Assembly: GCA_900474095.1 (NCBI GenBank)
Contig: UCOA01000135.1
Location: 1 to 49,382 of the forward strand
DNA: 49,382 nucleotides
Origin: Hyphomicrobiales bacterium
GTDB lineage: Bacteria > Pseudomonadota > Alphaproteobacteria > Rhizobiales > Rhizobiaceae
Reading direction: 5' to 3'
The notes beneath the pieces were generated by a model. The model saw only the letters and a program-made list of their open reading frames with translations, did no database searches and was not told the DNA's origin. Every line of letters starts with the position of its first letter. The stretch's first letter is position 1. The position numbers and the translations under genes are program-made. Shown in pieces: positions 4,857-37,178 of this stretch.

Positions 4857-6164
4857 TCATTGGCTAACCTGTTCGGCTCGCGGGTTCTTTGTCGCCGGAA
4901 GGTCCGTCACTTCCGGAGATGCCTTGGATGTCTCGGACGGTTTGCGAAGGACCCGCACGACATCGCCAGGCTGCAGGAAGGTTGTATCCGATGCCGGGAT
5001 CTCTCTGACGGTTTCACCGGTCCGTCGCGTTACCGTAAAGGCGAGCGAAACGCCGCTGGCCTCCATGCCCTCGGAAAGGGCGTTCAACAGAAGTTTCTGT
5101 GTGGTGTCGCGTTTCAAGGCCAGCTGATCCAGAACCGCCTTTGCCGACTGCAGTTCGATGGCAACCTCTGTCCGTTGCTTGTCGTAGAGGCCCTCGAGGT
5201 TGCGTGTCGTTTCGGCGATGTTCTGGCGTGCCCGCATGATCGCTGTCACCAGATCCAGCCGATTGGCGTGGTAGCTGCGCAGCGTCCGTTCAAGATCCGC
5301 TTGGCGGGACGGAAGTGCAATGCCGCGCTCGACCATGCTTTTGGCATTCGCGAGTTCTTTCTTGATCGACGCAATATCCTCGTCGGTGCCTCCGATCTTC
5401 TTTTCGATCATGCCGATTTCAGCCCTCAGGAGATCGCGCAGTTCCACCAGAGACTTCGACTGCCGGTTCATAACATTGATGCGGGCGGCAAGGATGAGCT
5501 TTTCCTGTTGAAGAATTGATGCGGCGAGTTCCTGATCTTCTTCCGAACCCTGATCGAACCGCATCTCGTTTGCGCCCGAAATCTCAGCTTGAAGCCGGGC
5601 AATTTTTATCTTGCTGCGCAACAGTGAGTTTTCGATCTCCCGAAGTTGGCCGACATATCCTGTCTTACCCCCGGAACCCGGGGAGCTGTTCAATGCTCGA
5701 AACTCGCCGCCGCTCATGGCCAATGACTGCAAGACGGTGAGCCCGGGGTGAAACTTGTATTCTCCCGGCTTGCTTACATCTCCCACGACGTAGATCGGCT
5801 GCTGTTCGAGGATTTCGACGGTGACGTGAGGTGTTTCGACCAATCCTATTTTGGCCTTCAGTTCCCTGGAAATTTCCGCGGCGAGTCCCACGCTGTCGAG
5901 ATTGCTGACTGGCAGAGTACCGATAACGGGCAGCGACACCGTGTTCGCCTCTGAAATCAGGAACTCGCCGCCGATCGAATCCCATTTTTCATAGAGGCCT
6001 TTGGTGGGCATCCATTGGACGATCGTCAGCCGAATTTTAGTCTGTGGCGCAAGTTGAGAGCTATCGGCCAGAACGGGTGTAGACATGCCGCCGAAAACAC
6101 TCATCGCTGCCGCAATGGACGCCGCAAGAAGCGGTCCACGGTAGGGCCGGAAGGATACGTTCAA
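4857..6164 (-). CDS. exoF: ExoF-like polysaccharide export periplasmic/outer-membrane protein
   Basis: Polysaccharide biosynthesis/export (Wza-related) protein with a signal sequence, about 435 residues, close in size to rhizobial ExoF (about 420). Order: hydrophobic N-terminus ending near VLADSS; the export domain with GGEFLISEANTVSLPVIGTLPV and the LVETPHVTVEI strand; an SLBB-type beta-grasp segment (PIYVVGDVSKPGEYKFHPGLTVLQSLAMSGG); a long alpha-helical coiled-coil region (about residues 150-330); and a second beta domain ending FLQPGDVVRVLRKP. The ribosome site GGAG seven bases before a TTG at 6164 supports that start; a further TTG at 6191 has none. It would form part of an envelope-spanning exporter with an inner-membrane copolymerase not present here. 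The symbol is by similarity of domain layout; substrate is unknown. Confidence 0.82.
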   Translation of the reverse strand: MNVSFRPYRGPLLAASIAAAMSVFGGMSTPVLADSSQLAPQTKIRLTIVQWMPTKGLYEKWDSIGGEFLISEANTVSLPVIGTLPVSNLDSVGLAAEISRELKAKIGLVETPHVTVEILEQQPIYVVGDVSKPGEYKFHPGLTVLQSLAMSGGEFRALNSSPGSGGKTGYVGQLREIENSLLRSKIKIARLQAEISGANEMRFDQGSEEDQELAASILQQEKLILAARINVMNRQSKSLVELRDLLRAEIGMIEKKIGGTDEDIASIKKELANAKSMVERGIALPSRQADLERTLRSYHANRLDLVTAIMRARQNIAETTRNLEGLYDKQRTEVAIELQSAKAVLDQLALKRDTTQKLLLNALSEGMEASGVSLAFTVTRRTGETVREIPASDTTFLQPGDVVRVLRKPSETSKASPEVTDLPATKNPRAEQVSQ

Positions 6165-6191
6165 GGTCTTTCTCCAAGCTGCAAAAACCAA

Positions 6192-6678
6192 AGAGCCCGT
6201 GGCCTGAAGGCAAAGAGCTATGCTCAGTGTGCCAATTGAACGCGGATTGAGAAGGGGAAGAGTGGCGCTTCGGCTTCATCAATATTGCTGAAAAGCGGAT
6301 GCCGCGCGTACCTGAAATGCGCTCAAGTGGACACCGGCTTATCCCGACTGATCTAACGACGGATGGTGGCCAAGAAAGGGTAGGAGAACAGGCGCAGGGC
6401 TACTACCGTCGGAGCTCAGGTACTAGACCGTTTGGATGAGTGAGGGCCTAGCTGTATCTCCTCATCTATTGAGCTTCGCCCCCCTCTCAGCCGTTTTGCG
6501 TCGTCGCAGTTGTCCACCAGCTAGGCTAAAGTCCGCTACTGACGTGTGGATGCATTTCGTGCGCGCCGGGGCAAGCAGAGACTGCTTGCCTCCGCGTGCT
6601 CAAATCGCTCCAACATTGTGAATTTTGTAGATCCTGAAATCGGCCGGTTTAGGGATCTGTGCAAAGTGGTGATAGGTA
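6192..6678. other. Divergent intergenic region, exoF-like / luxR-like genes
   Basis: About 490 bases without a convincing gene. It must hold the promoters of both divergent genes. The only strong structure I see is the 21-base palindrome at 6570-6590, on the luxR-like side. No clear sigma-70 or EcfG boxes were found. Confidence 0.6.
6570..6590. promoter_or_regulatory. Perfect 9-bp-arm palindrome upstream of the luxR-like gene
   Basis: Arms GGCAAGCAG and CTGCTTGCC are separated by AGA. It lies about 90 bases before the luxR-like start. No T-run follows on either strand, so an operator is more likely than a terminator. Which protein binds is unknown; autoregulation by the adjacent LuxR-type protein is a guess. 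Confidence 0.45.
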
Positions 6679-7434
6679 ATGGATATGCTGTTGGACGGGA
6701 ATGCGTATGACGCTGCAGGCGCCAGAAGGCGGCTTGAGCCGCGACGCGTCATTTTACTTCTGACGAACAGCGGCAGCGTATCGGAACGATTGATCGACGC
6801 CATTGAACGGGAATTCCCCTGGATCCGGATCGAGCAGGTCGAGCATGTAAGCGCTGCCTGTACGACCTTTTCTCATCCGGTGGCACTTATTCTCGTCGAC
6901 ATGGCATTGATGAAGAAAGCAGAAGCCGCGTCGGCCGAGCTTCTGCGTATTCACCCGCATGCCCTTACCGCCGTCATCGAGCCTTACGACAAGGTTCAGG
7001 TCGCGCCCCTGAGCGAAGTTGCCGCGTCTCCGCTCATTCGCAGCGTCCTGCCAATGGACCTCAGGCTCGATGTCTGGCTGTCCATCATCCGTCTGATGCT
7101 TTGCGGCGGGGAGTATTTTCCACCGGGGTCGATGATCAGGACGATGTTGCGCGATCAAAACGCGACTTTGTCTACACACAACGGCGCAGCGCACGTTTCG
7201 CAAGGTCGAATGACCAACATGGCCGAACTCACCGCGCGAGAGTCGCAGATTCTCGGGATGGTCTCACACGGCCTCCAGAACAAGCTGATTGCCGCCGAAT
7301 GCGGGTTGTCCGAGCATACCGTGAAGATCCATCTGCATCACATCATTCGGAAGCTGGGTGTCCACAATAGGACGGAGGCCGCGGCACGATTTCGCAATCT
7401 TCACGACAATGGGCAGCCGATGAACGAGATCTGA
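6679..7434 (+). CDS. LuxR-family transcription regulator with degenerate receiver domain
   Basis: 251-residue DNA-binding protein. The C-terminal LuxR/NarL helix-turn-helix is clear at about residues 184-238 (LTARESQILGMVSHGLQNKL ... SEHTVKIHLHHIIRKLGVHN). The N-terminal 20-150 region has the beta/alpha pattern of a response-regulator receiver (VILLLTNSGS, VALILVDMALM), but the acidic pair after the first strand is missing, and the usual Thr/Lys positions are not recognisable. Phosphorylation-dependent control is therefore doubtful. It is divergent from the exoF-like export gene, so a role in polysaccharide gene control is plausible but inferred. The start ATG has only a weak ribosome site (AGGTA); a second ATG lies two codons later. 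Confidence 0.85.
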   Translation: MDMLLDGNAYDAAGARRRLEPRRVILLLTNSGSVSERLIDAIEREFPWIRIEQVEHVSAACTTFSHPVALILVDMALMKKAEAASAELLRIHPHALTAVIEPYDKVQVAPLSEVAASPLIRSVLPMDLRLDVWLSIIRLMLCGGEYFPPGSMIRTMLRDQNATLSTHNGAAHVSQGRMTNMAELTARESQILGMVSHGLQNKLIAAECGLSEHTVKIHLHHIIRKLGVHNRTEAAARFRNLHDNGQPMNEI

Positions 7435-23744: not shown

Positions 23745-25964
23745 TTATGCAGGGGCGGGCGAAAAGAATTTCAGTGCCTGCGGCGTAACGTGAATGTATT
23801 GCGCCGCGGGATTCTGGTTGGTCATATTGCGGTAAACATACCCGCAGACCATGCGATCGAGGAACGAGCCGCCGAAGGTTTCGCAGAGGCGGTCGTCCTT
23901 TATTTCCACGACCCCCGTAATGCTCGTATTGGCGCTGCGATAGGCGGTGTTTCCAGCCTTGTCGAAGTGCTGGATGAAATCAGTGCCGTTCCTGTGCTTG
24001 CCCATCCACGTCTTGTCGCTGACGAGATCCCGCAGCTCGGAGCCTGCGACCCGATCAGCCTCTTTCCCTTCAAAGCCGAACGGCCATTCAGGAATGCCGG
24101 CGGCCCGTAGGCCGGTCAGATGGTACTGGAGGTCATCCTCGCGCCAATAGTCATAGAGATAGCTGTAATAGGTAAGATTGGTATCCGGAAACAGCTCCAG
24201 CAGTTTGGCCGCTTCCTGCGTGCCGTGCTGTCGATCGCCCGTGGTCGTATACGCTGCTGCAAGATATTCGTGCACCGGTTCGGCGTTTGGTAGAGCTTCG
24301 CGCGCCGCTTCCATCAGCGGAATAGCCCGTTCGTTTTCGCGCGCCATGTAAAAAACGATCCCTGCCAGTAACTGGAAGCTCGGCGGCGGCGTAGGATCGA
24401 GCCGCAAGGCTCTTTCCATCTCGGCAATCGCTTCGTCATGCCGTCCGGTATGCGCCAGTATGAGCGCCAGGTTGGAAAAGGCCTCCGCATCGCTCGGCTG
24501 GGCTGCCACTGCCCTGCGGGCGGAATCCATCGCTTCCACGTCGCGGCCGTCGACCAGCTGCAACAGTGCAAGGACGGTGTGCGCGCGCGCGTTGTCGGGA
24601 TCCAGTTTCAGGGCTTGCCCCGCAGCGTCATAGGCAATCTTGCGGGCCACCGCGGCGGACCACAGAAAGGTATAGTCATTCCGCCAGACGTCGACGGCGA
24701 CGCGGGCGATCCCTGCATGCGCGTTGGCAAAAGTTGGATCAAGATCGATTGCCTTCTGATAGTAAGACAAAGTCCGGCGGTAAGTCTCGACATCGCTATA
24801 GGTGACGCCCTCCTGCTCGGCTCTCAGATAGTAGTCATAGGCCTCCAAATTATTGGTTGGAATCCGCGCCAACTGGTCCCGTTCGCCTTCACTCAGCTTC
24901 ACTGACAACGCCGAAATGATCTTGCCTATGACGTCGTCCTGCACGGCGAAAAGATCTGCGTACTGGCGGTCATAGCGCTCTGCCCAAAGGGAAAGCCCGG
25001 TCACCGCGTCGATCAGCTTGACGTTGATCCGCAGTCTTTGCCCGGCTCTTTGCAAACTGCCTTCCAGAACATAGTGCACGCCGAGTTCAGCGGCGACTTC
25101 CTGAACCTTGGCCGGTGCATTTGCAATCGCGAAAACTGAATGGCGTGCGATCACGAAGAGGCCTGAAACCTTCGACAATTCGGTGATGAGATCGTCTGTC
25201 AGACCTTCGGCCAGATGGTCATGCTCCTTGTCGCCGCCAACATTGATGAAGGGAAGCACCGCAACAGACGGTTTGTCAGGAAGCGGATATGCGAACCGAT
25301 TGGTCGTTGACGGCGTTTGGATCAACGCCCATGGTTGCACCCACAGGGCCGCACCCGCCATCAGGAGGAAAACGACCGTTGCGATCATGGCCTGAAAGCG
25401 CCAGCGACGCAGGTTTTTCCGGGCGCCAGCCGTGCTGCCCGCCGCCGCCGGGTCAAGCACGACATGGTATACGCGAATCGGCTCGCCAATACTTTTGACC
25501 TTCTGTTCACCAAGCGACACGTAGCCGACCGAGAGCTTTGTTTTCACCTGATCATAGGCCGCTCCGGAAATGGCGATACCGCCCGGTTTGGCAAGCGTTT
25601 GTATCCGCTCTGCGATATTGACGCTGTCGCCATGGATGTCCTCACCCTCGACGATGATGTCGCCAAGATTGACGCCGATCCGGAAATCGAGCCGCTGGTC
25701 AGGCGGGACTGCAGCATTCTGCTTCGCCTTTTGTTGCTGCACCTCCACCGCGCAGCGCAGTGCATCAACCACGCTGTGGAACTCGACCAACATGCCATCG
25801 CCCATGGTTTTGACCAGACGACCGCTGTGCTCCGCGATCTGCGGCTCGAAGATATCCTTCATGTCGCGTTGGAAACGAAAGCGCGTCCCTTCCTCGTCGA
25901 TCTGGCTCAAACGGCTATAACCAACGACATCGGCGATCAGAATTGCGGCGAGGTGGCGCTCCAT
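23745..25964 (-). CDS. Membrane class III adenylate/guanylate cyclase with TPR domain
   Basis: 739 residues from ATG 25964; a GTG at 25994 lacks a ribosome site. Layout: class III nucleotidyl cyclase domain (about 1-180) with metal-binding Asp about 12 (AILIADVVGYSR) and Asp about 56 (KTMGDGMLVEF), then GVNLGDIIVEGEDIHGDSVN; a membrane segment (about 198-220); a TolB-N-like module (KPSVAVLPFINVGG, EGLTDDLITELSKV, RHSVFAI) and a long TPR array (about 350-620) with DAEAFSNLALILAHTGRHDE; then a C-terminal globular part. Architecture common in rhizobia, many copies per genome. The periplasmic TPR region may sense a protein ligand (inference). Makes cAMP or cGMP. Confidence 0.92.
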   Translation of the reverse strand: MERHLAAILIADVVGYSRLSQIDEEGTRFRFQRDMKDIFEPQIAEHSGRLVKTMGDGMLVEFHSVVDALRCAVEVQQQKAKQNAAVPPDQRLDFRIGVNLGDIIVEGEDIHGDSVNIAERIQTLAKPGGIAISGAAYDQVKTKLSVGYVSLGEQKVKSIGEPIRVYHVVLDPAAAGSTAGARKNLRRWRFQAMIATVVFLLMAGAALWVQPWALIQTPSTTNRFAYPLPDKPSVAVLPFINVGGDKEHDHLAEGLTDDLITELSKVSGLFVIARHSVFAIANAPAKVQEVAAELGVHYVLEGSLQRAGQRLRINVKLIDAVTGLSLWAERYDRQYADLFAVQDDVIGKIISALSVKLSEGERDQLARIPTNNLEAYDYYLRAEQEGVTYSDVETYRRTLSYYQKAIDLDPTFANAHAGIARVAVDVWRNDYTFLWSAAVARKIAYDAAGQALKLDPDNARAHTVLALLQLVDGRDVEAMDSARRAVAAQPSDAEAFSNLALILAHTGRHDEAIAEMERALRLDPTPPPSFQLLAGIVFYMARENERAIPLMEAAREALPNAEPVHEYLAAAYTTTGDRQHGTQEAAKLLELFPDTNLTYYSYLYDYWREDDLQYHLTGLRAAGIPEWPFGFEGKEADRVAGSELRDLVSDKTWMGKHRNGTDFIQHFDKAGNTAYRSANTSITGVVEIKDDRLCETFGGSFLDRMVCGYVYRNMTNQNPAAQYIHVTPQALKFFSPAPA

Positions 25965-26331
25965 GTCTGGACTTTCTCGGAGTGCGGCTTCCACAGTTTA
26001 CAGCAGGTCTGACATCGATGCCATTGTGGCTGTCTCCAGATGTCGACGCGAAGCTGGAGGCCGTCAAGGCCACCACCAGCAGGCAGCGTCAGGACTTGCC
26101 GCCGGCGACCTGTCTTGCCAACTGATCGAGCCATTCGCGCCGTATTTCAAGCTCTGCGCCATGAGCTGAATGCCGCCGTTAAACAGATGGGTCAGGTCAA
26201 CCAGCAGAATGCGGGATAGTCGAGGAGGCCCGAGAGTGACAATCTGAGCGCTTCACCCTGCAAGACAGCTGATCGCGGCGGTGCTTATCGCCGACGCGCG
26301 GCATAAAAATTCGCTAGGTCCGGCAAAACAA
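25965..26331. other. Intergenic stretch without supported gene
   Basis: About 370 bases upstream of the cyclase gene and downstream of the small gene at 26409-26669. Short frames on both strands have no ribosome site or known product. The cyclase promoter must lie here but was not identified. Confidence 0.45.
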
Positions 26332-26792: not shown

Positions 26793-26880
26793 ACCTATGT
26801 CAAGAAGCCTTGTCAATAAAAATTCGAAATCCGTATCGATCCCGAAACCGGCAGATGTAAGGCTGGAGGATGGTGGTTGT

Positions 26881-27477
26881 GTGCACCCCCGTATGGCGCC
26901 CCGAGATCGTATAGTGTCAACGGCGTGCGAACTGTTTCGGCAACACGGCATCCGCGGTATCGGCGTGGATGCCATCGCCGAGGCGGCCGAGACCAACAAG
27001 ATGACGCTCTACCGTCATTTCGGCTCCAAGGACGACCTGGTCTGCGAAACGCTCAGGTTCAAGTCCGAACAAGCCTCCGCCCTCTGGGAAGAACTCGAAG
27101 CGCAGCACCCGAACGACCCGATGGCGCGTCTGCACGGCTGGGTCAAAGCCAGAGCCCAGTGTCTTGCCGACAATCAGTACGGCTGCGATCTCGCCAATGC
27201 CGCGGTCGAACTCAAGGAACAGGGTCATCCGGCCCATGCGGTGATCGAAAATTTCAAACTGGCGCAGCGCCTCCGTCTTGAAAAACTCTGTTGCGACGCC
27301 GGTGTGGCCGAACCGGAACTGTTGTCGGACACACTTTCCATGCTGATGGAGGGCGCCCAGGTGAGCAAGCTTGCCACTGGCAGCGAAGGTCCGTCGATGC
27401 GGTTCATGCGTGCCTGCGAAGCGGCAATCGCTTCGTTCCGCCAACCGGCTGCAACGCTCGAACCTCCCGTATCATAA
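26881..27477 (+). CDS. TetR/AcrR family transcription regulator
   Basis: About 198 residues from GTG 26881. N-terminal TetR helix-turn-helix: RDRIVSTACELFRQHGIRGI, GVDAIAEAAETNKMTLYRHFGSKDDLV; the C-terminal ligand and dimer domain (ANAAVELKEQGHPAHAVIEN) resembles TetR_C groups without known ligand. Start choice: GGAGG is 11 bases before the GTG; the open frame extends to an ATG at 26797, but that has no ribosome site, and the 28 codons between are AT-rich and rarely used. It precedes the amidohydrolase-peptidase-ligase operon by 168 bases on the same strand, so it may regulate that operon; no copy of its putative operator was seen at 27.5-27.6 kb. Confidence 0.9.
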   Translation: MHPRMAPRDRIVSTACELFRQHGIRGIGVDAIAEAAETNKMTLYRHFGSKDDLVCETLRFKSEQASALWEELEAQHPNDPMARLHGWVKARAQCLADNQYGCDLANAAVELKEQGHPAHAVIENFKLAQRLRLEKLCCDAGVAEPELLSDTLSMLMEGAQVSKLATGSEGPSMRFMRACEAAIASFRQPAATLEPPVS

Positions 27478-27644: not shown

Positions 27645-28466
27645 ATGCCCTCTTTCCAGCATGTCATCGAAGATCCCGATCCGCTGGGCTGGTGGTCGGC
27701 CCATCGCGGCGCCTCGCCGGTCATCGGCACCGCCATTCACAACGGACATCATCTCCGCAGCGATCTCAAAGACCTAATGGCGCTCGACAGCGACGAGCGG
27801 TTGCGCGAAGAGGATCCGTTCACGGAATTCTTCATCCGCGACCTGCCCAACCGCATTGTCTTCCACCGCTCCCGTTTCGAGGTCGATCTGAACCGCGATC
27901 GTGACGGGGCTATCTATTTTCGACCCGAGCAGGCCTGGGGGTTGGAAGTCTGGAAGGAGCAGCTGCCCGACACGGCCATTGCGATCTCGCTGCACGTGCA
28001 CGACGCCTATTACACCATGCTTGACGCTTATTTGCGTGGTGTCGAACAGCAGTACGGCGCCTTCGTCCTCCTCGACATTCATAGTTACAATCATCGCCGC
28101 AACGGCGCCGAGGCACCCGAAATGGCTTTCGACAAGGCGCCGCAGATCAATATTGGCACCTCCTCGATGGACCGTGAGCGCTGGGCCCGGGTGCTGGACC
28201 CTTTCATGGATCAATTGCGCAATTTCGAGTTCCGCGGCGAGCCGATGGACGTGCGGGAAAACATCGCCTTCCAGGGCAGGGGCGAGCAGACGCGCTTCGT
28301 CCATGAGCGCTTCCCGCAGTCCGGCTGTGCCATCGCCATAGAGTTCAAGAAGTTCTTCATGGATGAATGGACCGGCGAGCCGGACATCGAAGCGCTGCAG
28401 GCGATGCGACGGATGATCCGTCTCTCGGTGCCTGTTCTCGAACAATCCTTGCGGGGGGAGTCATGA
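27645..28466 (+). CDS. N-formylglutamate amidohydrolase family protein
   Basis: 273 residues with an AAGGA ribosome site. Family marks of the FGase fold (zinc carboxypeptidase-like): AIHNGHHLR, FRSRFEVDLNRDRD-type segment (SRFEVDLNRDRDGAIY), LLDIHSYNHRR and CAIAIEFKKFFMDEW. The classical enzyme cleaves N-formyl-L-glutamate to formate and glutamate in histidine degradation, but there are no hut genes here, and this branch belongs with the QEGLA and ATP-grasp genes. It more likely hydrolyses an amide on another glutamate-containing substrate (inference). Its stop overlaps the next start (ATGA). Confidence 0.85.
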   Translation: MPSFQHVIEDPDPLGWWSAHRGASPVIGTAIHNGHHLRSDLKDLMALDSDERLREEDPFTEFFIRDLPNRIVFHRSRFEVDLNRDRDGAIYFRPEQAWGLEVWKEQLPDTAIAISLHVHDAYYTMLDAYLRGVEQQYGAFVLLDIHSYNHRRNGAEAPEMAFDKAPQINIGTSSMDRERWARVLDPFMDQLRNFEFRGEPMDVRENIAFQGRGEQTRFVHERFPQSGCAIAIEFKKFFMDEWTGEPDIEALQAMRRMIRLSVPVLEQSLRGES

Positions 28467-30355
28467 CACGAACTCGCCGCAAGGACCGCGACGGGCCCGC
28501 CGTCTATCCTGAATGGCTGGAGGAAATCCTCGGATGCATCCGGACGGCCAAGGCTGTGCGCAAGGATTTCGAACACGGCGGCCGCCTGCATATCGACCGG
28601 CCGCTGCCGTTTCTGTCGATCTTCCTGACCAGGGGACGGGAAGGCCTCGCGGCTCGCGACGTCGCCGCTGCCAATGCTTCCTATTTGATTGCCAATAATC
28701 TTGATGAAGCTCTGCCGATCATCGTGGCGGTCGGCGGCATTCTCAAGCAGCGGTTCGGCGCCTTCATGCTGCTGGACATCGATGAATTGGACCATGACAC
28801 GTTGCTCACGGATGACGCTCCCTATTTGCCGCCGTTCGAGATCAGGATTGCCGCGACTGGTGAGCCAGCCGCCGAGGAGGCCGAAACGGCATTGGCGGAT
28901 GGCGCAGACATCAGACAGGTCAAGTTCCGCACGCCCCGCGTGGAGCGGTTCGCGCTGAATACGGATCTCCAGGCGGCAACACTGGCGAAAGAGACTGGCT
29001 TCCCACTGGTCGCGGTCCGCTTTGCACCGATCTATAAACAGCCGGAATCCGGCAGGATCTATCCCGATCTGCGCGAGCGACTGGTTGCCAACATCTTCGA
29101 CGCCGGACTGAAAGCCTTTGCCGCCTTCGTTGCGGCCACGCAAAGCCTGAAGCTCACCACCCACCGGGCGCTCGGCCGCAAGGCCTTCGTGGATGCGGTG
29201 AGCCGTGCCGACCGCAGCATCGACGAGGTCGCCGCGAGCTTCGACTTCCTTCTGGCGGTCACCCCGATCAATGCCGATGCTGCCTGGCAGGAATTCAGGG
29301 AGAACAAGTTCAAGCGCACGCCGCAATTCCTCTACCGGCCGCTTTCGGTGCAGGTCGAAGCTGAAAAGCGGAAGCTCTTCTCGGTCGCCTTCGACCGCTT
29401 CGAGGATCCGGTTCTCTACCATCTCTATCGCGAGAAGCAGCAGGAGCTTGATCTGCAGCTATCGCTGATCTCGGCACGCGAGAGTAGTCGTTTCGTCGAA
29501 TACGGCCGCGCGCTCTATGGTCCGGTCGAAACATCGCTATACCGCAACGCCGCGGAAATCCTGGTTCAAACGGAGAACCAAGGCGGCGATGACGGCGACA
29601 ACGGCGCGGAGATCGCCGGCTGTTACGATGTCGAAATTGCCGCCCGGGCCATGATCGCCAGCTATCAGCGACAATATCAAGGGTTCACCGCCGAAATCGA
29701 ATTGCGCGACGACCTGCCGCCCGGCCTCCTGGTATCCGACGACCGCCTGCTCATTTCGCGTGCCACCCGTGTGCCGAGGAGCCGGGTGCATGCGCTGCTC
29801 AGCCATGAGATCGGCGTGCACCTGCTCACCTACTTCAACGGTTCGGCGCAAGGCCTGCGGCTGTTCCGTTCGGGTCTTGCCGGCTATGAGGGTATGCAGG
29901 AGGGTCTCGCCGTGTTCTCTGAATACATGGCCGGCGGCATGACGGTCGGGCGATTGCGCCTGGTCGCCGCCCGGGTGGTCGCCTGTTCCTGGATGCTCGA
30001 GGGACGGCCGTTTGCCGAGACCTACAATATGCTGGTCGGCGAACATGGGTTCGGGCCGGCTGCCGCCTTCAACCTGACTTTGCGGCTCTACCGCGGCGGC
30101 GGGCTCGCCAAGGACGCCATCTATCTGCGCGGCCTGCTCGAGCTTCTCAGCCACCTGAAATCCGGCGGTGCTCTTGATCCGTTCTGGATGGGGAAGATTT
30201 CTGCGTCACATTTCCGCGTGATGCAGGAACTCAGCCTGCGCGGTCTGCTCAAGGCGCCGGTCCTCCGTCCCGCCTTCCTTGTCGATCCGCACGCGCAGGC
30301 CCGCCTCGACAAGGCCCGGGCGGGAATGACCCCGCTCGACATGGTCATAAGCTAG
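28463..30355 (+). CDS. DUF1704/QEGLA-motif protein, probable zinc peptidase (MATCAP-like)
   Basis: 630 residues, start at the ATGA overlap. Belongs to the family annotated as flavohemoglobin-expression-modulating QEGLA protein. I see a zinc-peptidase HExxH at about 448-452 (LLSHEIGVHLL), followed 28 residues later by Glu about 480 in MQEGLAVFSEY, a candidate third metal ligand. The eukaryotic relatives with this domain (MATCAP) are metallo-carboxypeptidases that remove C-terminal residues from tubulin. The bacterial substrate is not known. N-terminal part (about 1-180) has segments like DIDELDHDTLLTDDAP and is not recognised. Operon with an amidohydrolase and an ATP-grasp ligase. Confidence 0.85.
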   Translation: MTRTRRKDRDGPAVYPEWLEEILGCIRTAKAVRKDFEHGGRLHIDRPLPFLSIFLTRGREGLAARDVAAANASYLIANNLDEALPIIVAVGGILKQRFGAFMLLDIDELDHDTLLTDDAPYLPPFEIRIAATGEPAAEEAETALADGADIRQVKFRTPRVERFALNTDLQAATLAKETGFPLVAVRFAPIYKQPESGRIYPDLRERLVANIFDAGLKAFAAFVAATQSLKLTTHRALGRKAFVDAVSRADRSIDEVAASFDFLLAVTPINADAAWQEFRENKFKRTPQFLYRPLSVQVEAEKRKLFSVAFDRFEDPVLYHLYREKQQELDLQLSLISARESSRFVEYGRALYGPVETSLYRNAAEILVQTENQGGDDGDNGAEIAGCYDVEIAARAMIASYQRQYQGFTAEIELRDDLPPGLLVSDDRLLISRATRVPRSRVHALLSHEIGVHLLTYFNGSAQGLRLFRSGLAGYEGMQEGLAVFSEYMAGGMTVGRLRLVAARVVACSWMLEGRPFAETYNMLVGEHGFGPAAAFNLTLRLYRGGGLAKDAIYLRGLLELLSHLKSGGALDPFWMGKISASHFRVMQELSLRGLLKAPVLRPAFLVDPHAQARLDKARAGMTPLDMVIS

Positions 30356-30363
30356 GAGCCGCC

Positions 30364-31410
30364 ATGCGTATCGCATTCTTCGTCAATTCGATCGAGAGCG
30401 AGGAGACCGGCTTTACGACGACGGCGCTGGCGATGGTCGCAGTCGCCCGCGGACATGACGTTTGTTACGTCGCTCCGGGCGATTTCGTGCTGCGGCCCGA
30501 TGACAGCCTCATGGTGCGGGCAACGGCCGTTCCCGCCGCGAAATACAAGGATCCGCGAGCCTTTCACGATGCATTTCAAAGCAAGGACGCCAAGGTCCAG
30601 ACCATCGACGCGCGCGAGGTCGACGTCATCTTTCTGCGCAACGATCCCTCGCTTGATGCCGATGATCGTCCCTGGGCGGCCCATATCGGCGCCATGTTCG
30701 GGCGACTTGCCAGCGAGCGCGGCTCAATCGTCGTGAATGATCCCTCAGGTCTGTCGCTGGCGCAAAATAAACTCTATTTCCAGGACTTTCCAAAGGCCGT
30801 TCGTCCAGAAACGCTGATTTCCAAGAGCATCGAGGAAATCCGCGCCTTCATCGCCGATCAACGCAAAGGCGTGATCATCAAGCCGCTGCAGGGTTCCGGC
30901 GGGAAAAACGTCTTCAAGATCGCATCGTCTGACGACGCCAATCTCAACCAGATCTTCGAAGCCGTCAGCGGCGAGGGTTACCTGATCGCGCAGGCCTATC
31001 TGCCGGAGGCCAAGACGGGCGACACCCGCTTTTTCCTGATGAACGGCAAGCCATTGATCCGCGACGGCGTCTATGCCGCATTCCGGCGCGTTCCGGCCAA
31101 GGGAGATCTGCGCTCGAACATGCATGCCGCCGGCACCGCCGAGGCAGCAAAGATCACCGACGGGATCCTGGCAATTGCCGAGATGGTCCGCCCGAAACTG
31201 ATCGAGGACGGCATGTTCCTCGTCGGCCTTGATATCGTCGGCGACAAAGTTTTGGAGATTAACGTTTTCACACCCGGCGGGCTCCCCGATATCGTCGGCA
31301 TGCACAAGATCGATTTCTGCGAGGAAATCATTGAGGGGTTGGAAAACAAGCTGGTTATCCGCAAGACGTATGCGGGCTCGATTTCCAATCGGGCGCTGGC
31401 GACGCTTTGA
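30364..31410 (+). CDS. Glutathione-synthetase-like ATP-grasp ligase
   Basis: 348 residues; TAGGAG ribosome site, 8 bases after the preceding stop. N-terminal domain MRIAFFVNSIESEETGFTTT and the FLRNDPSLDADDRPWA pattern match GshB; ATP-grasp part with VIIKPLQGSGGKNVFKI (phosphate loop), YLIAQAYLPEAKTGDTRFFL, GDLRSNMHAAGTAEA and the metal-binding VLEINVFTPGGLPD. It should form an amide between a carboxylate and an amino acid using ATP. It could make glutathione, but a normal gshB usually lies elsewhere in rhizobial chromosomes; sitting beside a peptidase and an amidohydrolase it may instead act on a peptide end. Substrate unproven. Confidence 0.88.
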   Translation: MRIAFFVNSIESEETGFTTTALAMVAVARGHDVCYVAPGDFVLRPDDSLMVRATAVPAAKYKDPRAFHDAFQSKDAKVQTIDAREVDVIFLRNDPSLDADDRPWAAHIGAMFGRLASERGSIVVNDPSGLSLAQNKLYFQDFPKAVRPETLISKSIEEIRAFIADQRKGVIIKPLQGSGGKNVFKIASSDDANLNQIFEAVSGEGYLIAQAYLPEAKTGDTRFFLMNGKPLIRDGVYAAFRRVPAKGDLRSNMHAAGTAEAAKITDGILAIAEMVRPKLIEDGMFLVGLDIVGDKVLEINVFTPGGLPDIVGMHKIDFCEEIIEGLENKLVIRKTYAGSISNRALATL

Positions 31411-31468
31411 GCTGTATCGCCTCGCCATTTGTGCTATCGCCTTGCGCCTGAGACGTTTGGAAGTGCCC

Positions 31469-32149
31469 GTGATCCCCTGGACCCACATTGACACAGCGAT
31501 AATGCCGGACGGCGGCGGCGAACTGCGGCTGAAGCAGCGCGGGACCGAGTTTTCCATCATGCTCGGGACCATCGAACTGATGAATAGCCGATTGAGCGGC
31601 TCTGAGGAAGCGCTGGCGCGGCTATCCTATGAACGGATCCGCAATCACGCGCGACTGCATATCCTGATCGGCGGGCTCGGCATGGGCTTCACGCTCAGGG
31701 CTGCATTGACCGAACTTCCTGCCGATGCGCGCGTGACCGTTGGAGAGCTCGTTCCTTCGGTGGTCAAATGGGCGCGGGGGCCGATGTCAGACGTGTTCGG
31801 CGGTTGTCTGGATGATGACAGGGTTACCATCCGCGAAGGCGATGTCGGCCGCGTCATCCAGTCCGCGACCGGCGAATATGATGCCATTCTTCTCGATGTC
31901 GATAACGGGCCGGAGGGCCTCACCCGCAAGGCCAACGACGATCTCTACAACACCGCTGGCCTTCGCGCTGCCCGCAGGGCGCTGCGACAAAACGGCGTTC
32001 TCTCCGTCTGGTCATCGGCTCCAGATGCAGGTTTCACGCGCCGGCTGCGCGACGCCGGCTTCGTCGTGGAAGAACTGAAGGTGCGGGCCAGCACCAAGGG
32101 CAGCGGCGCTCGCCACGTCATCTGGATGGCAACAAAGACGGGGAGGTAG
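31469..32149 (+). CDS. Spermidine-synthase-like / class I methyltransferase-fold protein
   Basis: About 226 residues from GTG 31469 (GGAAG five bases upstream); the open frame goes further back into the ATP-grasp gene without support. The Rossmann core is clear: HILIGGLGMGFTLRAALTEL (cofactor loop), VTVGELVPSVVKWARG (second acidic strand), REGDVGRVI, YDAILLDVDNGPEGLT, then NGVLSVWSSAPDAGF. This is the spermine/spermidine synthase-like group, which also contains methyltransferases. Last gene on the strand after the ATP-grasp gene, 58 bases away; it may belong to the same operon. Activity undetermined. Confidence 0.8.
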   Translation: MIPWTHIDTAIMPDGGGELRLKQRGTEFSIMLGTIELMNSRLSGSEEALARLSYERIRNHARLHILIGGLGMGFTLRAALTELPADARVTVGELVPSVVKWARGPMSDVFGGCLDDDRVTIREGDVGRVIQSATGEYDAILLDVDNGPEGLTRKANDDLYNTAGLRAARRALRQNGVLSVWSSAPDAGFTRRLRDAGFVVEELKVRASTKGSGARHVIWMATKTGR

Positions 32150-34812: not shown

Positions 34813-35027
34813 AAGACACCAATATCGGCCCCGCATTCGGCGTCTGGCGGGATAAGTGCAGTGCCTTCGAAGCGGCCCCTGCGAGGACGGCATGCCTGAG
34901 CCAAATCGATAAATGATCGATCCCATTTTCATTGGGCAATGGCAGGTGACAAAGTGCACCGGTAATGCTCTAACTCTCTGAATTGCATGAACATGCATTA
35001 GGCGGTATTACTTTAAGGGGGCCGCGC

Positions 35028-37178
35028 GTGAAGACGGTTTGCGATATCCGGCTGTTTGTGCCGAGGCTTTGGCTGATCGTGGCTGTCATGGTTATCGTCG
35101 CAGTCTGTGGCGGCAAATCCGTTCTTGCGCAGACGCCCACTCCAGCTGTATCCGAGCAAAAGATAGATCAGTTGATCAAGCTGCTCGACGATCCGGAAGT
35201 CCGGGCCTTGCTGAACAAGAGCGCAGCCACCCCCGCCTCGCCGGCTGCAGAACCAGCTGCGGACATGTCCGCTGAGACGTTCAGCACCTGGGGCAACCGG
35301 ATCCGCGAGCATCTGCGAAATATCGGGCAGGCCGTCCCGCAGGTTTCCTCCGAATTCATGCGCGCCGCCAGCACCATTGCGGCCGAGATCAATGGCCACG
35401 GCCCGTTCGGCGTGTTCCTGCTTTTCCTGACGCTGGTGCTGATCGGTCTCGGAGCGGAATGGCTGTTTCACCGCATTGCCAGCCGCAGCCGCGTCCACAC
35501 GGCGTTGGCGGCCAGCGAAAGCGTGCTGCATCGGACCGGCCACCACCTGTTTGCCGTTCTGGCGCCACTGGTGGCCTTCAGCCTGGCAAGCCTTGGGCTG
35601 TTCATGGCACTGACATGGCCGCCGCTTCTGGAAGCCATCATGCTGCCCTTGCTGCTGGGCGTCATCGCCTGCCGCTTCGTGACCCGTATTGCCCGGTTGC
35701 TGCTCGTTGGCCCGCCGTCCGCAAAAAGGCTGGAGGCCCCCCGGGGCCTCCTTGCGATTGATGCCGCCTCCGGCGTCTTCTGGTACAAGCGCATCTTCTG
35801 GTTCTCCTGCATCTTTTTTGCCGGCTGGGCGCTCGCCGGTGTGATGACGGCGCTTCATATCGCACCTGCGGTTCGAGGCGTCGTTGTCTATATGTTAGGC
35901 CTCGGCCTTTTGCTGGTTGGCATCGAAACCATCTGGAACCGCCCTGCCGCCATTGCACGGCCGCAGGGTCGCGGTGTGATGGAGTGGGCTCTGACGGCCT
36001 ATCTCTGCCTGTTGTGGGGTCTGTGGGTCGCAGGCGTGATCATCATTCTGTGGCTCGGCATCTATTTACTGATCCTGCCCGGTCTTTTGAAGACGACGAC
36101 CGCAACGGTACGAAATGCATTCGCCGCCAAGCCTGATGCCCCCGACAACGGAAATCCGGTGTTCGAGGTCCTTGTCGAACGGGGTGCGCGGGCCGGCGTC
36201 ATCGCGCTTGCCGTCGCGTGGCTCGCCTTCCTGGTCAACAAGCGATCCTCGATGTTCACCGGGGACGGAATGGCCGACCGTCTCATTCAAGGCGTCCTGG
36301 TGGGAGCCATCATTCTGCTTGTCGCCGATATTCTCTGGCAGATCGCCAAGGCAGTCATCAACCGTACGATCGACCGAGCACGAATTGCCACCGGCGACGA
36401 TGCCCATCATGCTCGAAACGCCCGCCTCCTGACATTGTTGCCGATTCTGCGAACCATGCTGGCGATCGTCATAGGATTGATTGCCGTCATGATGGTGCTG
36501 TCCGGCCTCGGTGTGCAAATCGGCCCGCTGATAGCCGGCGCCGGCATCTTCGGCGTGGCAATCGGTTTCGGCTCGCAGACACTGGTCAAGGACGTGATCA
36601 GCGGCGTGTTCTACATGATGGACGATGCCTTCCGCGTCGGGGAATACATCCAGGCGGGCAGCTACAAGGGGACGGTAGAATCCTTCAGCATCCGCTCCAT
36701 CAAGCTGCGCCACCACCGCGGCCCGGTATTTACCGTGCCCTTCGGCTCGCTCGGCGCCATCGAGAACATGAGCCGCGACTGGGTGATCGACAAGTTCACC
36801 ATCTCGGTCAGCTATGACACCGACATCAACAAGGTCCGCAAAATGGTCAAGGGCGTCGGCGCGGCGCTGCTCCAGGACGAGGAGTTCGGACCCTTCATCA
36901 TCGAAACCGTCAAGATGAAGGGCGTTGAGCAGTTCGGCGACTACGGCATCAGTCTAAGCTTTGCGATGATGACCAAGCCGGGCTACCAGACGATGATCCG
37001 CCGGCGTGCATACATGATGATCCGCGAGGTCTTCGTCCAGAACGGCGTCGTCTTTGCGTCGCCGACGGTCCAGGTGGCGGGCGGCGACCAGTCCTCCGCT
37101 GCTGCCGCGGCTGCGACGGTCAAAGCTGCGATGGACCAGAAGAAGGTCGAGGGCGGAGCAGGAGGCGAGGGGGCTTGA
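35028..37178 (+). CDS. Large MscS-type mechanosensitive channel
   Basis: About 716 residues from GTG 35028 (AAGGGG upstream; a TTG at 34983 has none). Signal-like N-terminus (LIVAVMVIVAVCGGKSVLAQT), a periplasmic helical region (about 35-120), about ten transmembrane segments, then the MscS core: pore helix region LIAGAGIFGVAIGFGSQTLV, DVISGVFYMMDDAFRVGEYI, and the beta-domain IRSIKLRHHRGPVFTVPFGS. It ends in an Ala/Lys/Gly tail. Larger than E. coli MscS (286), similar to the MscM-like/YbdG class. Inner-membrane channel that opens on osmotic downshift. Confidence 0.93.
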   Translation: MKTVCDIRLFVPRLWLIVAVMVIVAVCGGKSVLAQTPTPAVSEQKIDQLIKLLDDPEVRALLNKSAATPASPAAEPAADMSAETFSTWGNRIREHLRNIGQAVPQVSSEFMRAASTIAAEINGHGPFGVFLLFLTLVLIGLGAEWLFHRIASRSRVHTALAASESVLHRTGHHLFAVLAPLVAFSLASLGLFMALTWPPLLEAIMLPLLLGVIACRFVTRIARLLLVGPPSAKRLEAPRGLLAIDAASGVFWYKRIFWFSCIFFAGWALAGVMTALHIAPAVRGVVVYMLGLGLLLVGIETIWNRPAAIARPQGRGVMEWALTAYLCLLWGLWVAGVIIILWLGIYLLILPGLLKTTTATVRNAFAAKPDAPDNGNPVFEVLVERGARAGVIALAVAWLAFLVNKRSSMFTGDGMADRLIQGVLVGAIILLVADILWQIAKAVINRTIDRARIATGDDAHHARNARLLTLLPILRTMLAIVIGLIAVMMVLSGLGVQIGPLIAGAGIFGVAIGFGSQTLVKDVISGVFYMMDDAFRVGEYIQAGSYKGTVESFSIRSIKLRHHRGPVFTVPFGSLGAIENMSRDWVIDKFTISVSYDTDINKVRKMVKGVGAALLQDEEFGPFIIETVKMKGVEQFGDYGISLSFAMMTKPGYQTMIRRRAYMMIREVFVQNGVVFASPTVQVAGGDQSSAAAAAATVKAAMDQKKVEGGAGGEGA

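Follow-up and report, generated by a model that had tools for sequence, protein, structure and literature searches.

A widely co-conserved amidohydrolase, MATCAP peptidase and GshB-like ligase gene module in bacteria with a possible role in low-osmolarity adaptation

A 49,382-nucleotide stretch of DNA from a Hyphomicrobiales bacterium (contig UCOA01000135.1; the whole stretch is called the window hereafter) carries three genes for an amidohydrolase (FG), a metallopeptidase (MAT) and an ATP-grasp ligase (GSH). We found that FG, MAT and GSH form a real module that is widely co-conserved among bacteria. Our best explanation, to which we give an even chance, is that this is a widespread cytosolic module that makes and unmakes peptide bonds and helps cells adapt when osmolarity or ionic strength is low. 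The make-and-unmake half of this explanation is drawn from folds, residues and family chemistry, the osmotic half from neighbourhood statistics and one transcriptome. All three genes lie on the + strand. FG (27645..28466; PF05013) encodes a free-standing, putatively active FGase-like protein of 273 amino acids with an M14-type fold, MAT (28463..30355; PF08014, TIGR02421; AF2 pLDDT 90.8) a long MATCAP/QEGLA metallopeptidase of 630 amino acids, and GSH (30364..31410; NF009110) a GshB-like ligase of the PRK12458 subfamily with 348 amino acids. The open frame of MAT spans 28367-30355, and its start was taken at 28463, where an ATGA sequence forms a 4-base overlap with FG. MAT and GSH are separated by 8 bases, and a SpeE-like frame starts 58 bases past GSH. 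Coordinates and profile scores thus agree with an earlier interpretation made from the letters alone (the sequence-only reading), which had described this packing.

For the comparison across bacteria, loci were collected with the peptidase as the only query (the best 80 of 574 confirmed). A trio was counted as complete when FG ended no more than 0.7 kb upstream of MAT or overlapped it and GSH started no more than 0.3 kb downstream, all on the same strand. By this distance rule 69 of these 80 best loci held the complete trio. According to their titles, the 80 comprise 53 alphaproteobacterial loci (L065-L117) and 27 from other groups, namely Planctomycetota, Bacteroidota, Verrucomicrobia and Kiritimatiellae, Acidobacteriota, Gemmatimonadota, Calditrichaeota, Poribacteria, Campylobacterota and Deltaproteobacteria, so that about ten phyla are represented overall. 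Recurrence of one arrangement in such distant phyla is far beyond chance. Eleven loci fell outside the rule. Four of them (L093, L095, L100, L110) look complete and failed through an over-extended frame, three (L126, L129, L136) hit the end of the stored stretch, L108 has broken frames, L118 is rearranged, L138 shows no FG, and in L122 a gene for an MgtE magnesium transporter (5767-7161) stands between MAT and GSH.

The same association was seen from the side of the ligase. Independently, 398 genomes of the phylum were searched with the ligase model, and 16 matches from 14 genomes passed the cut-off. These scored 436-488 bits, and none of the other matches listed exceeded 241 bits, a value typical of canonical GshB; the scores are thus bimodal. 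A MATCAP domain is found no more than about 1 kb from 15 of the 16 PRK12458-type ligases, and for the sixteenth (G109) the contig ends 48 bases away. Among the long MATCAP genes of our alignment A1 the ligase is adjacent in 13 of 14. In the exception, L043, a DoeB/aspartoacylase-like gene (L043:8561-9610, - strand) takes the ligase's place, with a score far below the cut-off (66.9 against 402.7 bits). DoeB itself has a role in ectoine degradation. Co-occurrence of the three families, proposed as a check by the sequence-only reading, was therefore borne out by both counts. Among the papers listed by a search of the open literature, with subscription papers outside its reach, none appeared to describe the trio. 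Iyer et al. 2009 reportedly predicted operons of ATP-grasp enzymes and peptidases; should FG-MAT-GSH be among these, the gene set itself would not be new.

MAT consists of two domains. Its C-terminal peptidase domain (residues 263-627; 29249..30343, +) shares the fold of human MATCAP, and the solved human chains align from residue 263 on. MAT passes the MATCAP model PF08014 (293.4 bits, cut-off 27) as well as the QEGLA model TIGR02421 (352 bits, cut-off 338.65). The HExxxH motif (H448, E449, H453; 29804..29821, +) and the QEGLA motif (29897..29911, +), in which E480 is presumed to be the third metal ligand, align with the HExxxH and the EGLA stretch of human MATCAP. HExxxH and E480 were kept in all 79 aligned rows, the window included. 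We conclude that MAT is genuinely related to human MATCAP and has the catalytic residues. Human MATCAP has been demonstrated to be a C-terminal exopeptidase and a deglutamylase, and in eukaryotic members the activity is on protein tails (PMC10499314). The human proteins (MATCAP/TMCP1-2, encoded by KIAA0895L and KIAA0895; PF08014) match only the C-terminal domain of MAT, have no linked ligase gene and act on tubulin. The name "flavohemoglobin expression-modulating" attached to TIGR02421 found no support in the papers listed by the literature search.

The N-terminal domain of MAT (residues ~1-243; 28463..29191, +) is FGase-like and apparently catalytically dead. Judged by alignment of residues, it is dead in 73 window-type proteins. 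In six vibrio-type fusions it is largely intact, with most catalytic residues kept, and in the phylum sample six vibrio-type genes have the FGase domain fused to MAT. This internal domain and the vibrio-type fusion had both been missed by the sequence-only reading, as had the osmotic and ion-transport neighbourhood described below. Stand-alone short MATCAP genes served as a contrast set of 13 loci; neighbours were scanned in two of these (L052, L053), with no trio and two neighbour proteins without any match. A gene for a RimK-type S6 ligase in L053 (726-1646; called by NCBIfam) is separated by 0.3 kb from a short MATCAP gene that stands alone, and another in L061 (3043-3948; called by a profile match) by about 5 kb. 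Such a short MATCAP might be a remover of glutamate from S6.

Free-standing FG passes the FGase model PF05013 (81.5 bits, cut-off 28.9) and agrees with this family in fold as well. A fold search returned the N-formylglutamate amidohydrolase structures 2q7s and 2odf together with M14 carboxypeptidases, although the FG profile gave no match at E 0.001 among the sequences of solved structures. An assignment as the N-formylglutamate deformylase HutG was rejected (TIGR02017, 27.8 bits against a cut-off of 278.75). FG thus differs from the N-formylglutamate amidohydrolases in scoring below the curated HutG cut-off, and its gene context differs too.

GSH carries the whole architecture of GshB, PF02951 plus PF02955 (the latter at 179.6 bits, cut-off 23), and aligns with GshB (1gsa) over its full length (E 1.1e-61). 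GshB chemistry is the extension of a C-terminal carboxylate. Nevertheless, GSH belongs to a separate subfamily. It passes PRK12458 (NF009110) with 472.9 bits against a cut-off of 408 and was rejected as a canonical GshB, with sub-equivalog scores (NF003573, 216.2 against 272; TIGR01380, 201.9 against 299.05). In place of the EINVTSPT of true GshB it has an EINVFTPGG motif (31255..31281, +). The pattern E[IV]NVx.PG was found in 56 of 59 module ligases, with three outside it, and EINVTSPT in all ten canonical GshB rows, eight of which are different. The adjoining MATCAP domain is a further difference from GshB. An assignment to the RimK family was rejected as well (TIGR00768, 64 against 143.4), and GSH stayed below the cut-off of ATPgrasp_ST (23 against 31.4). 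No TTL-type domain was among the five Pfam matches of GSH at E up to 0.001. TTL/TTLL and RimK are likewise ATP-grasp enzymes that lengthen a protein C-terminus and are opposed by peptidases, but by profile they belong to ATP-grasp families different from that of GSH. The sequence-only reading, which our data support in part, had paired ligase and peptidase to add and remove an amino acid, perhaps glutamate, at a peptide or protein end, by analogy to tubulin. Since MAT is a real MATCAP relative with catalytic residues, such a pair is plausible; a link to the tubulin cycle finds no support here, the ligase being of GshB type. In the ligase tree, the placement of the vibrio-type relative to the window-type ligases, as a single clade or not, had weak support and long branches. 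Genome G113 holds three ligase-MATCAP pairs on separate contigs (L048, L049, L064).

Neighbouring genes were clustered de novo and then assigned by Pfam and NCBIfam. Beside modules of different phyla we observed genes for MscS, the magnesium transporters CorA and MgtE, RCK-domain ion channels and K-Cl cotransporter-like proteins. MscS lies within 10 kb of the long-MATCAP locus in 13 of 27 genomes against 0.81 expected (tail ~6e-14), and CorA in 7 of 27 against 0.17 expected (tail ~2e-10), by an estimate from whole-genome copy numbers that assumes random placement and ignores kinship, with distances read by eye. Twelve excluded long-type loci are without MscS (L123, L125, L126, L128, L132, L136, L139, L140, L142, L144, G307, G342), and with these counted as misses the MscS figure becomes 13 of 39. 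One of the 13 MscS genomes, G093, is that of the L043 locus, in which the ligase is absent. As controls, MscS was found within 10 kb of none of six canonical gshB and none of ten strong gshA-type places, the nearest being 11.9 kb away. In L036 a 174-amino-acid protein with a match to the MscS beta-domain is encoded 20 bases past MAT.

Published physiology is consistent with an osmotic role. In Photobacterium damselae, RS17020, annotated as GshB, is reported to be up 38.4-fold and the adjacent RS17025, annotated as QEGLA, 27.5-fold at 1% versus 3% NaCl (PMC10308900). On a Photobacterium replicon in PLSDB, ligase and MAT stand in the same order as this pair. Mechanosensitive channels (MscS or MscL) together with Mg uptake systems are described as commoner in lower-salinity bacteria (PMC10219603), and these are kinds of gene that also lie beside the module. 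The rloABC genes of Pseudomonas aeruginosa (retropepsin, inactive transglutaminase-7TM, ATP-grasp) likewise combine an ATP-grasp enzyme with a peptidase and are tied to hypo-osmotic tolerance: mutants with none of the three RloA proteases are reported not to withstand hypo-osmotic stress and to be rescued when rloB or rloC is lost (PMC12239564). Unlike our module, that system has an unrelated peptidase and membrane and secreted parts. Next to the module in L044, L050 and L064 lies an rloABC-like operon, with fragments in L048, all of one genus; its RloC-type ligase passes the cut-off (447 against 314). Among eight window proteins scanned for rlo genes there was no transglutaminase-7TM or Zn_protease match.

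From these data we infer that the module works in the cytosol, in which direction its reactions run, that its enzymes share a substrate and that it serves an osmotic role in this organism. The GshB-like ligase would use ATP to activate the C-terminal carboxylate of a small peptide or protein tail and would couple an amino acid there; C-terminal residues would be taken off again by the MATCAP domain, and FG, as an M14-type amidohydrolase, would cut the last amide bond or an N-acyl one. Our guess is that FG may dock on the dead FGase-like domain of MAT, given that the same domain is intact and fused in the vibrio-type loci. In L127 three ligases follow one another and in L132 two, from different subclades of the tree, which fits a stepwise addition of different residues. 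More speculatively, and with a probability that we put well below even, such a ligase-MATCAP cycle in about ten phyla could reversibly lengthen and trim peptide C-termini in a low-osmolarity response, either to size the pool of free amino acids or to tag ion channels, and would then be the bacterial counterpart to the tubulin-tail peptidase of eukaryotes and perhaps its source.

The most serious alternative is a small-molecule pathway, without a protein target, that makes and recycles a solute (a thiol, osmolyte or signal), either a short peptide of a new, glutathione-like kind or an N-acyl-amino acid. We regard it as a real possibility somewhat short of even, and in its chemistry it is a special case of our own explanation. 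The entire GshB architecture of the ligase, the naming of the FG family for an N-acyl-amino-acid hydrolase and the DoeB/aspartoacylase-like gene beside MAT in L043, far under its cut-off as stated, would all suit such a pathway, as would the fact that the ligase is kept in 6 of 27 module genomes without a match to PF04262 or PF04107. Known MATCAP enzymes, however, target protein tails, and none of 20 scanned neighbour proteins, a minority of all neighbours, is an enzyme of amino-acid or sulfur biosynthesis. These tails lead to a second alternative: the ligase could extend the C-terminus of a specific protein, such as a channel or ribosomal protein, and MAT could trim it, as in the pairs RimK/S6 or TTL/MATCAP. 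Besides the trimming of protein C-termini by eukaryotic MATCAP, the tagging of S6 by RimK, as reported (PMC12239564), and the recurrence of channel genes nearby speak for it. But no other cluster is constant at the locus across phyla (frames of at least 60 amino acids), and hence there is no obvious dedicated target; the ligase also scores far under the RimK-family cut-off. We hold tagging of a protein tail to be rather unlikely. A conserved ribosomal precursor peptide was rejected too, no small cluster spanning phyla among frames of that length.

Could the trio instead be a second glutathione synthetase with degradation enzymes, in ordinary thiol metabolism? NCBI names the subfamily accordingly, and two vibrio-type ligases score over the PRK05246 cut-off. 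We consider this improbable. An ordinary glutathione synthetase was also the outcome that the sequence-only reading had named as speaking against its proposal, and GSH is not the one on which this genome would ordinarily rely: the usual gshB is on another contig (G000:C152; PF02955 at 245.7 against 181.6 bits for GSH) and its gshA-type gene on a separate one (C201). The bimodal subfamily scores, the PG motif in place of EINVTSPT and the presence of the module in the six genomes (drafts) without a PF04262 or PF04107 match argue in the same direction. A remnant of histidine or N-formylglutamate degradation is suggested by the annotation of FG as N-formylglutamate amidohydrolase, yet the HutG score lies under its cut-off as given above and no hut gene was present among the annotated neighbours examined; we give this reading hardly any credence.

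Several observations weigh against a make-and-unmake module with an osmotic role. FG adjoins MAT inconstantly: of eight window-type genes in the phylum sample, four have it immediately upstream (window, L035, L044, L046) and two at a distance of 1.4-2 kb (L045, L049), while in two it was not found (L043, L048). Vibrio sp. HDW18 (L161:7965-9956) has an FGase-MATCAP fusion without an adjacent ligase, and the vibrio-type ligases of L041 and L162 pass PRK05246 (NF003573) at 277.1 and 291.7 against 272, though not TIGR01380. MscS linkage is lacking in 14 of the 27 genomes, and an MscS-like frame occurs in 14 of the 80 best loci, in 7 of the 27 others and in just 7 of the 53 alphaproteobacterial ones. 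Both the neighbour families and the 27 genomes were chosen after the clusters had been seen, and L120, L135 and L137 were known to hold CorA. The window has 3.6 kb of DNA, including glgA, between GSH and MscS. The RloA-like and RloB-like proteins stay below their cut-offs (110.6 against 210 and 414 against 900) in that single genus, and the P. damselae pair was equated with the module by name and adjacency, not by sequence.

The window channel is an MscS-family protein (34983..37178, +; PF00924; profile place C136:36579-36776), a recurrent neighbour of the module. The same gene order is found in the independent annotation of a Pararhizobium sp. A13 plasmid, on which the QEGLA/MAT protein is 92.7% identical and glgA and a mechanosensitive channel come after the trio, matching the window. 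In the plant-symbiont model Sinorhizobium meliloti (L159) the module is on a large plasmid, flanked by polysaccharide and sugar-transport genes. The SpeE-like gene behind GSH (31469..32149, +; 226 amino acids, GTG start) matches Spermine_synth (PF01564) weakly (24.8 bits, cut-off 22.9) and was rejected as spermidine synthase SpeE (TIGR00417, 21.8 bits, cut-off 249.55). It is confined to loci near the window type (a cluster of eight including the window, with few further partial matches); this lineage-specific gene is not a conserved part of the module. Upstream lies a gene for a TetR-family protein (26797..27477, +; PF00440; likewise a cluster of eight loci including the window), a possible local regulator, and on the opposite strand one for an adenylate/guanylate-cyclase protein with TPR repeats (23745-25994, -). 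For RNA control, Rfam gave no match at gathering score in the window and nine loci.

If our explanation is true, the long MATCAP (QEGLA/DUF1704) proteins of bacteria would gain a function and osmotic adaptation a peptide-based route. The ligase subfamily that databases call glutathione synthetase would, if this reading holds, be misnamed and at the same time explained. The module may also bear on the origin of the eukaryotic tubulin-tail carboxypeptidase.

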